A program made the translations under genes and the position numbers. Source: Thermoanaerobaculia bacterium (GTDB lineage Bacteria > Acidobacteriota > Thermoanaerobaculia > Multivoradales > J023). From it: DNA of 64,000 nt. Below the pieces are notes generated by a model. It saw only the letters and a program-made list of their open reading frames with translations. It made no database searches and was not told the origin of the DNA. The stretch lies in the NCBI GenBank assembly GCA_030431255.1, contig JAUIJL010000033.1, positions 1-64,000 on the forward strand. Direction: 5' to 3'. Shown here one piece after another: positions 19,561 through 44,406 of this stretch (positions are counted from its first letter, which is position 1; every line of letters begins with the position of its first letter).

Positions 19561-20769
19561 ATGGTCGACGAAGTTACACGGATCACACGCGAGGGCTGGG
19601 GGGAGCGCCTGGGGGGCTCGTTCAAAGGAATTGTCGTCGGCATCTTGATGGTTTTCGGCGGCATTGGATTGCTCTTCTGGGGCGAGGGGCGAGCCGTTAA
19701 ACGGGCGAAAGTCTTGTCGGAAGGCTCGGCGGCCGTGATCACAGTGGCCGCGTCGGGCCCGAGCTCCGGGAACGAAGGCAGCCTGGTGCACTTCACCGGC
19801 CGAACCGACGCCTTTGAGCCCATTTCCGATCCGGTCTTCGGCGTTCAGTCCGACACTTTGAAGCTACATCGCCGGGTGGAGATGTTCCAGTGGGTCGAAG
19901 AAAAAGAGTCGAAAAAAAAGAAGAACACCGGCGGCAGCACCGAGACGGTGACCACCTACCGCTATAAGAAGAAGTGGTCTTCCAAGCTCATCGACTCCGA
20001 TCATTTCGAGGAGCCTTCGGGCCACCAAAACCCTTCGTCCATGGCCTACTCCAACCAAACCTTCGCCGCCGAGCCCATCGTGATCGGCGATTGGATGCTC
20101 GGCGCTAGATTCGTCGCCAAGCTGAACAAGACCGAAGATCTCAGGGTCGGTGAAGCGGAGCTGGATCGAGCGTCCGAAGAGGTGCGCCGCCGGGCGACGG
20201 TCGCTGACGGCGGTTTTTACCTCGGCGACGATCCCAGCTCCCCCGCGATCGGCGATCTCCGGGTCCGATTCGACACCGTGGCGCGAGCCGAGGTCAGTGT
20301 GGTCGGTCAACAGCGCGGCCAGAGCCTCAAACCCTACAGCGCCAAAGAGGGTGGAGATATCGCCCTGCTCAGCTATGGCGCCAAGACCTCCGAGGAGATG
20401 TTCGACGCGGCCAAGGCCGGCAACGCCACCCTCACCTGGGTGCTGCGAATGATCGGCTTCGTGATCATCATGGTGGGTTTTTCCACGATCCTGCGTCCCT
20501 TCGCCGTCGCTGCCGATTTGCTGCCATTCCTCGGCAATCTGGCGGAGAAAGGCATTGGTCTCGCGTCCTTCGTGATGGCAGCGATGGTGTCGTTGGTGAC
20601 GATCGCCATCGGCTGGATCTTCTACCGTCCGCTCCTGGGTCTGACCCTGCTGGCGCTGGCTATCGGCTTGGTGGTTTGGCTGATGAAACGCGCCGCCACC
20701 AACCCCTCGTCCGATAAGTGGTCCGGCCAAGCGCCAACGGGCCCGCCGCCACCTCCTCCGGCCGGGTGA
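19561..20769 (+). CDS. TMEM43 family membrane protein
   Basis: Protein of 402 residues, with AAAGGA 7 nt before the ATG. One transmembrane helix near the N-terminus (about 22-41, GIVVGILMVFGGIGLLFWGE) is followed by a large soluble domain with the TMEM43 hallmark V-H-x-x-G then 'D-x-V-F-G-V', 'L-x-R-x-V-E-M-F-Q-W-V-E' and 'S-S-K-L-I-D-S-D-H-F'. Three further helices lie at about 295-315, 330-352 and 357-378, then a Pro-rich tail. Four helices and the domain order fit the bacterial relatives of eukaryotic TMEM43/LUMA, whose function in bacteria is not established. The ECF sigma gene follows 48 nt downstream, suggesting one transcript. Confidence 0.87.
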   Translation: MVDEVTRITREGWGERLGGSFKGIVVGILMVFGGIGLLFWGEGRAVKRAKVLSEGSAAVITVAASGPSSGNEGSLVHFTGRTDAFEPISDPVFGVQSDTLKLHRRVEMFQWVEEKESKKKKNTGGSTETVTTYRYKKKWSSKLIDSDHFEEPSGHQNPSSMAYSNQTFAAEPIVIGDWMLGARFVAKLNKTEDLRVGEAELDRASEEVRRRATVADGGFYLGDDPSSPAIGDLRVRFDTVARAEVSVVGQQRGQSLKPYSAKEGGDIALLSYGAKTSEEMFDAAKAGNATLTWVLRMIGFVIIMVGFSTILRPFAVAADLLPFLGNLAEKGIGLASFVMAAMVSLVTIAIGWIFYRPLLGLTLLALAIGLVVWLMKRAATNPSSDKWSGQAPTGPPPPPPAG

Positions 20770-20817
20770 AGCGTTGCATCTACTTGGAAAGCAGAGAGGA
20801 AACCTGAGAGAGCAAAC

Positions 20818-21405
20818 GTGAGCGAGGACCCCATGAGCAGCAACTCGTCGCCTATGGACACCCACCTGTTGTTGTCCGAAGCCCGAAGCGGTGACGACGC
20901 GGCCAAGAACCGCCTTTTCGGTCACCTCTACGGCGAGCTCCAGAAGCTCGCCCGGGTCCAGCTCCGGCGGTCCTCCGGAGGTAGCTTCCAAACCACCGAG
21001 TTGGTGCACGAAGCGTACCTAAAGCTGTGCAGCGCCGAGCAGCTGGCGGCCGGGGATCGAGCCCACTTCTTCTCGATTGCGGCCGGGGCCATGCGCCAAA
21101 TCCTGGTGGACCATTTCCGTCGAAACACCGCGGCCAAGCGAGGGGGTAAAGAAAAACCCGTGACCCTCGACGAGCAAAGCCTCCGCCGTCAGCAGGACGG
21201 CGCCTCGGTACTGGTTATCGATCAGGCCTTGACCCGATTCGCCGAAATCGACGAACGAGCCGCCAAGGTGGTGGAAATGAAGTTCTTCGGCGGGCTCACA
21301 GAAGAGGAAATCGCCGAGGGGCTCGGCATTTCCCAACGCACGGTTAGCGGAGATTGGAGACGGGCCAGGGCCTGGCTCAACCGCGAGCTGGCCGCGGGCT
21401 CGTAG
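20818..21405 (+). CDS. ECF-like sigma factor (Sig-70_X6 type)
   Basis: 195 residues from GTG 20818; ATG 20833 is an alternative start. Region 2 is at about 15-95 (DDAAKNRLFGHLYGELQKLA, TTELVHEAYLKL, HFFSIAAGAMRQILVDHFRR) and region 4 at about 135-192 (ALTRFAEIDERAAKVVEMKF, EEEIAEGLGISQRTVSGDWR). The A-K-R-G-G linker and H-E-A-Y-L-K-L are typical of the family often found next to Hanks-type kinases in Acidobacteria and Planctomycetes. Here no kinase or anti-sigma gene is adjacent. The stop codon (21403-21405) lies inside an interspersed palindromic repeat, so the original C-terminus may have been altered by insertion. Confidence 0.9.
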   Translation: MSEDPMSSNSSPMDTHLLLSEARSGDDAAKNRLFGHLYGELQKLARVQLRRSSGGSFQTTELVHEAYLKLCSAEQLAAGDRAHFFSIAAGAMRQILVDHFRRNTAAKRGGKEKPVTLDEQSLRRQQDGASVLVIDQALTRFAEIDERAAKVVEMKFFGGLTEEEIAEGLGISQRTVSGDWRRARAWLNRELAAGS

Positions 21406-21464
21406 GGGCGATCCTTGTGATCGCCCTCGGCTCTGAGCGGGCGAATACGAGATTCGCCCCTACG
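21401..21464 (+). repeat. Interspersed palindromic repeat, copy 1
   Basis: A 64-bp element bounded by an 11-bp perfect inverted repeat, CGTAGGGGCGA (21401-21411) and its complement (21454-21464). Inside are two hairpins of the same build: an 8-bp stem with 5-nt loop at 21406-21426 (GGGCGATC arm) and another at 21439-21459 (GGGCGAAT arm). It overlaps the end of the sigma factor gene and supplies its TAG. A second, rearranged copy in opposite orientation is at 44308-44406. Confidence 0.88.
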
Positions 21465-21488
21465 CGTGAACGTGATCGCCCTTGTCCG

Positions 21489-22238
21489 CTAGATACCGAG
21501 GGAGAGCCGGTCCGCGAGGACTTTGGGCAGGCCGGAGCGGACGATGCGCTCTTGGGCTTTGGAGATGGCGTAGTCCACCCGCTGCCAACGGACGGTGCGC
21601 GCCTCGCTGTCGTAGATCAGGTACGCCGCCCTTGGATCGCGGTCCCGGGGCTGGCCGATGGATCCCGGGTTCAGCAGGTAGCGCTTGCCTTCTTCCATGT
21701 GCAACACCGCCGATTCCCCTTGCACCACGGCCACCTCGATGGTGCCTTTGGAGTGCAGCACGAAACGGGAAGGGATGTGGGTGTGGCCGAAGAAGATGAC
21801 CGACGCCTCGGGGTAATTGGAGAAGATCTCGTAGGCGTCGTAGATGGAGAAGACATAGGTGTCTTCGTCCAGCGGAGAGCCGTGGCAGATATGCATGTCG
21901 TCGGTGATTGCCACCGGGCCGAGGGGCATCTCTCGCACGTACCGTAGATTGGCCGGGGTAAGGCGATCGGTGGTCCACCTAGCGGCCGCCAGGGCCGGCT
22001 GGTTGAAATTGGAGCCGTCTTCGAGCTCGGCCACCACCTTGTCGTGGTTTCCCCGGACGACATGGACCGTGCCCTCCAAATTCTTGACGGCTTCGACCAC
22101 CTGGTTGGGACCGGCCCCGTAACCGACCAAATCGCCCAACACCAAAGTGGCGTCGAAACGCTTACGCCGCACGCGCCTTAGGACTGCCGCGAAAGCGTCC
22201 CAATTGCCGTGCATGTCTGAAAGGACTAGATAACGCAA
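21489..22238 (-). CDS. YfcE/MJ0936-like metallophosphoesterase
   Basis: 249 residues from a TTG at 22238, overlapping the aroK end by 13 nt. All calcineurin-like metal motifs are present: D-x-H in LSDMHGNWDA, GDLVGYG, GNHD, CHGSP and GHTHIP, with a second histidine pair in the GHTH motif. The fold matches small diverse phosphodiesterases of the YfcE class; the physiological substrate is unknown. It is the last gene of a long minus-strand run that includes aroK, the transporter genes, thiE and accBC. The start is inferred from the conserved N-terminus MRYLVLSDMH. Confidence 0.88.
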   Translation of the reverse strand: MRYLVLSDMHGNWDAFAAVLRRVRRKRFDATLVLGDLVGYGAGPNQVVEAVKNLEGTVHVVRGNHDKVVAELEDGSNFNQPALAAARWTTDRLTPANLRYVREMPLGPVAITDDMHICHGSPLDEDTYVFSIYDAYEIFSNYPEASVIFFGHTHIPSRFVLHSKGTIEVAVVQGESAVLHMEEGKRYLLNPGSIGQPRDRDPRAAYLIYDSEARTVRWQRVDYAISKAQERIVRSGLPKVLADRLSLGI

Positions 22239-44307: not shown

Positions 44308-44406
44308 CGTAGGGGCGAATCTCGTATTCGCCCGATGACAGGCACGGGCGATCACAGCGCGGGCCGAATAATTACAGGCTCGGGCGATCACAAGGATCGC
44401 ACCTAC
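44308..44406 (+). repeat. Interspersed palindromic repeat, copy 2 (reverse orientation, expanded)
   Basis: Related to copy 1 at 21401-21464 but inverted: the GGGCGAAT hairpin comes first (44313-44333) and the GGGCGATC hairpin second (44382-44402, one mismatch). Ends CGTAGGGGCGA and a degenerate CCTACT. An extra 35 bp or so between the hairpins includes a second GGGCGATCACA half (44346-44356), as if the element had partly duplicated. It fills the space between two convergent genes. Confidence 0.85.

Follow-up and report, generated by a model that had tools for sequence, protein, structure and literature searches.

The element at positions 21401-21464 of the window (the whole 64,000-nt stretch of DNA analysed here) is a REP doublet of the GTAG class, i.e. 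a REPIN or basic BIME unit, in which a type I and a type II unit stand head to head. We consider it very probable that it is one copy of a unit of ~62 nt whose spread is owed to a REP-associated tyrosine transposase (RAYT/TnpAREP) that works on the single strand in its folded form. This reading is based on the anatomy of the element, its copy number, the heterotypic pairing with its spacer, the compensatory changes in the stems, the constant loop, the preference for convergent gaps, the patchy occurrence in relatives, the RAYT between identical type III REPs in a genome of the same order and the RAYT relic of the window genome. The relevant features of the window are listed below.

20818..21405, plus strand: ECF sigma factor gene (TIGR02999 Sig-70_X6; PF07638) with its stop inside the element, from the ORF and profile matches
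21402..21426, plus strand: REP type I unit, GTAG + GGGCGATC-CTTGT-GATCGCCC, from reading, exact genome copies and an RNA fold of -13.4 kcal/mol
21403..21405, plus strand: TAG within the GTAG tag, at which the ECF sigma gene stops, from reading of the ORF; the genome has eight gene ends of this sort, this one included
21427..21438, no strand: 12-nt spacer TCGGCTCTGAGC, akin to TTGCCTCTGAAT, the spacer usual in the family; a length of exactly 12 nt with similar sequence is found in most head-head pairs
21439..21463, minus strand: REP type II unit, inverted, reading GTAGGGGCGAAT-CTCGT-ATTCGCCC on the minus strand, from reading, genome copies and an RNA fold of -11.1 kcal/mol
21472..21485, plus strand: GTGATCGCCCTTGT, judged from reading to be the probable leftover of a second type I unit and the start of a spacer
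21489..22238, minus strand: calcineurin-like phosphoesterase gene, convergent neighbour of the sigma gene
44309..44406, no strand: another head-head pair belonging to this family, type II (plus strand, 44309-44333) and type I (minus strand, 44382-44406) with a 48-nt spacer

Direct reading of the letters gives perfect 11-bp inverted ends, CGTAGGGGCGA (21401-21411) and TCGCCCCTACG (21454-21464), together with hairpin 1, GGGCGATC-CTTGT-GATCGCCC (21406-21426), and hairpin 2, GGGCGAAT-ACGAG-ATTCGCCC (21439-21459). The element is composed of two 25-nt units, each consisting of GTAG, a perfect 8-bp stem and a 5-nt loop, which occupy 21402-21463 head to head with their tags outward and 12 nt between them. 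In both units a short palindromic stem-loop carries an unpaired GTAG at its 5' foot, as in REPs of the GTAG class. The unit that is repeated, GTAG...CTAC, is the ~62 nt of 21402-21463, inside the 11-bp-ended stretch, and the outer C and G at 21401 and 21464 are common to many copies, not all. The fold is more stable than expected by chance as DNA (z -4.5) and as RNA (z -5.6), with 0 shuffles equally stable. Leftovers like GTGATCGCCCTTGT are also found within the spacers of three other loci (L123, L134 and L135). The spacer of the second pair in the window contains a GTGATCGCCC remnant, and this pair directly abuts the next gene.

Our searches also demonstrate that the element belongs to a large dispersed family. 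In the 10.2-Mb genome, a draft assembly of 54 contigs with 98.8% completeness, the broader pattern GTAGGGGCGNNNCTTGTNNNCGCCC, which includes the common loop, yields 203 matches with up to 3 mismatches, compared with 10 for the reversed control, and the exact pattern GTAGGGGCGA-N-TCGCCC yields 58 matches against 0. A covariance model of the hairpins returns at least 127 matches among the 150 candidates scored, a lower bound, grouped in 72 clusters, of which 71 are intergenic. A loose GTAGG pattern is uninformative, its control matching as often as the real one, and an Rfam search of the window finds a tRNA and nothing else. The occurrence of these REPs in relatives is patchy; a genome of the same genus (G001) has 0 matches to the exact pattern. 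The initial annotation had described the two hairpins and inverted ends just as we read them, and had likened the interspersed repeat to a small mobile or REP-like family, to be searched for with a covariance model, supported if many copies lay in convergent gaps and given up if no further copies turned up. The copy counts bear out the family and establish that the repeat is real, and the placement agrees as well, as described below.

The genome clusters resolve into three stem types that share one loop, CTTGT: type I, GGGCGATC-CTTGT-GATCGCCC; type II, GGGCGAAT-CTTGT-ATTCGCCC; and type III, GGGCGGGG-CTTGT-CCCCGCCC. Compensatory changes occur at stem pairs 7-8, with a covariation of 0.229 versus 0.059 in shuffled alignments (0/500). 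Since the stem bases vary together on both sides, it is the hairpin itself that is kept. Among inverted neighbours within 100 nt, 36 of 37 combine type I with type II (24 of the 25 head-head pairs and all 12 tail-tail pairs). The odd one joins type II with type III, and for this reason the significance table counts 37/37 inverted pairs as mixed. Tandem neighbours, which run in the same direction, are of one type in 16 of 17 cases. The head-head spacer is most often 12 nt long, with sequences resembling TTGCCTCTGAAT, and several copies also have flanks in common, with CCGAAC preceding the tag of type I and GCA following the end of type II. As in REPINs and BIMEs, an inverted pair with a short conserved spacer is dispersed as a unit (25 head-head pairs, 24 of them type I with type II). 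Therefore, the I x II pairing and the conserved 12-nt spacer identify the doublet as what spreads, type III aside, which is nearly always single. The window copy, with type I, the 12-nt spacer and type II, belongs to this common unit. Two arrays were also observed: at L139:2501-2737 type II and type I REPs alternate three times with an 83-bp period, and at G000:C37:102446-102590 four type III REPs follow one another in one direction with a 40-bp period.

With respect to genes, the 72 clusters comprise 47 in convergent, 22 in tandem and 2 in divergent gaps, and 1 within an ORF call of doubtful start, as classified by a simple gene caller based on codon usage and made for this analysis. Because the observed background of convergent gaps is biased low by the exclusion of the REP gaps themselves, we used conservative expectations: the convergent excess (47/71 intergenic clusters) has a P of 3e-13 against 25%, and is still significant if one third of all gaps are taken to be convergent.

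The placement between convergent genes, together with a very stable RNA hairpin on both strands, raises the question of whether selection has kept the element for terminating transcription in both directions or for stabilising the mRNA 3' ends of the sigma and phosphoesterase genes; roles of REPs in termination and mRNA stability have been proposed (PMC3733652). An intrinsic terminator consists of a G+C-rich hairpin and a subsequent T-run, however, and no T-run follows the stems here; a terminator scan likewise finds no site at the element. Moreover, none of six relatives of the same family has a REP after the stop of the orthologous phosphoesterase gene, and such a function leaves the GTAG tags and the RAYT association unexplained. 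We therefore regard it as an unlikely origin of the element, although it is the best surviving alternative; a terminating or stabilising role is possible as something secondary to mobility.

The TAG at 21403-21405 is indeed the stop codon of the ORF at 20818-21405, i.e. of the ECF sigma gene, as had been annotated initially. Across the genome, eight gene ends, spread over seven clusters, stop at the TAG that a REP's GTAG contains; in each of the eight the overlap with the element is precisely the GTAG, and 0 gene ends overlap an element in other ways. At L158:2501-2579 a single REP doublet gives the stops of a RecX-like gene and of sfsA, which converge on it. On the proposed mechanism, a unit that abuts a reading frame in the xxG TAG phase would end the frame at once and the protein would stay intact; since only this phase would do so, overlaps would be limited to those that spare the protein. 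The stop-codon supply to the sigma gene is thus a neutral by-product. That REP pairs insert preferentially at gene ends in TAG-compatible phase, so that stop supply is a targeted safe-site mechanism beyond what selection has left, seems to us very improbable.

The initial annotation had gone further and supposed that insertion into the coding end would truncate or change the regulator. It is correct that the stop codon falls within the element, but the sigma domain is complete: the 195-aa protein aligns with positions 7-182 of the 183-position TIGR02999 profile. Repeat-free homologues from the same bacterial family stop at a similar place, 0-15 residues past a shared conserved C-terminal helix (for example RELAR*, RQLAAGSD*, RELAAGGAA*); this comparison is indirect, the homologues being paralogous or distantly related (50% identity at best) and not orthologous. 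A search of the relatives' contigs with the sigma protein likewise gives homologues of 38-47% identity and no orthologue. SfsA, encoded at L158 with a stop that an element of this kind supplies, has retained the C-terminus seen in its repeat-free relatives: orthologues of 61-71% identity occur in six relatives, none with a REP, and five of these six stop at the same residue or one later, the sixth (G002) being extended by ~10 residues. An altered regulator is accordingly most improbable; the sigma factor appears to be unchanged by the element, and nothing in the compared sequences points to truncation or alteration. The initial annotation had named, as grounds for abandoning the idea, that repeat-free relatives share this sigma C-terminus. 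In substance this was found, and it removes the functional effect only, leaving the repeat family as it stands.

The surroundings of the sigma gene differ among relatives. Phosphoesterase orthologues in the six family relatives are 78-87% identical and end at the same residue, and beside them these genomes keep an aroK-like gene, without the sigma and TMEM43-like genes. Because the sigma gene is missing at the locus, the relatives offer no clean empty site to set against the window copy. The block of the TMEM43-like and sigma genes (19561-21405) is lineage-specific at that place. One genome holds 64 matches to the window's ECF sigma protein, a large expansion of the TIGR02999 type.

To relate the family to a transposase, Y1 transposases were surveyed in 72 genomes of the order. 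One of these genomes (G019) has a RAYT gene (L188) that scores 100.7 bits with NF047646, against an NCBIfam cut-off of 80, and sits between two inverted copies of GTAGGGGCGGGGCTTGTCCCCGCCC, letter-identical to the type III REP of the window genome. Related GTAGGGG REPs surround two further RAYT genes: that of G053 (L187), a relative of the G019 gene, is flanked by GTAGGGGAGGGGCTTGTCCCCTCCC, and that of G025 (L216) by REPs of the GTAGGGGCGAATCATCATTCGCCC type. In the window genome itself, a RAYT piece of 56 residues (about 3-58) at L239:2071-2238, with 41-46% identity to the G019 protein and without the HUH motif and the tyrosine, lies between two inverted GTAGGGTCGGGGCTTGCCCCCGACC GTAG REPs (L239:1991-2356). 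These REPs are a type III variant, neither type I nor type II. Judged from its sequence, the locus would most simply be a decayed REPtron. The flanking of a RAYT by the same REPs that is typical of the GTAG class is thus found through G019, for type III, and in the own genome as a relic only.

An intact RAYT of this kind was not found in the 54 contigs of the draft window genome, with none beside type I or II, and G001 has no match to the G019-type RAYT. The window genome has 11 Y1-transposase genes, and 0 of the 11 are flanked by REPs of this kind. Several copies of Y1-transposase-like proteins of ~320 aa (L033-L041), with weak NF047646 matches and no REPs around, are similar to a class of long RAYTs without REPs in PMC6006769. 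We suppose that a RAYT would have acted on the folded single-stranded REP pair, cutting and moving doublets as ~62-nt units; as the sole such RAYT found is a fragment, the family would now have no gene of its own to mobilise it. The REP-RAYT mobility proposed here is putative. A MITE or an IS200/IS605 end, suggested by the short, dispersed element with inverted ends and by two IS200-type transposase genes in the genome (L031 and L032), is scarcely credible, since neither gene is flanked by the element's sequence, the own Y1 genes lack these ends, no full-length IS copies bounded by the exact ends, as around a TnpA gene, were found, and the GTAG at each hairpin foot, the two independent hairpins and the RAYT-flanking REPs point to REPs instead.

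The REP doublet is in good agreement with known systems. In PMC3733652 (Di Nocera et al. 2013), GTAG REPs are described with stems of 6-13 bp, head-head heterodimers and conserved spacers, a preference for convergent and tandem gaps, association with RAYT, and termini that often supply the TAG stop of flanking ORFs. The window family shares the GTAG foot, the heterodimers from different stems, the spacers, the gap preference and the TAG stops, whereas its host is of another lineage than those described there. Relative to the 24 families of that superfamily, the window stem GGGCGNNN-CTTGT is placed at the superfamily level, not by family. In the REPINs of Pseudomonas fluorescens and the BIMEs of E. 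coli, two inverted REPs are likewise dispersed as one with variants paired (Y and Z2 in E. coli; PMC6006769), but the window sequence differs and its perfect 8-bp stem lacks the E. coli bulge. TnpAREP cleaves single-stranded REPs in vitro (PMC8266576). For RAYT subclass 2.4 (Bertels group 4), canonical REPs are described whose stem base consists of three G-C pairs (PMC6006769), and the REPs here begin GTAG-GGG, a likeness in the REP stems; in contrast to REPtrons of that subclass, the window genome has a RAYT relic only.

The element is thus a well-built but ordinary REP doublet of a known kind, and everything seen fits published REPs; stop supply by GTAG REPs is itself already described in PMC3733652. 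The overall significance is limited, with a mild interest in the pairs being strictly mixed, I x II, and in the RAYT relic standing alone in its own genome (draft, 54 contigs). The comparison with relatives illustrates that REP stop-codon supply need not alter the protein. For a lineage with fewer descriptions of REPs, the analysis contributes a family that has a heterotypic unit and is clearly linked to a RAYT. With ~200 REPs and a mere fragment of the presumed transposase, this REP population seems to have outlived its RAYT.
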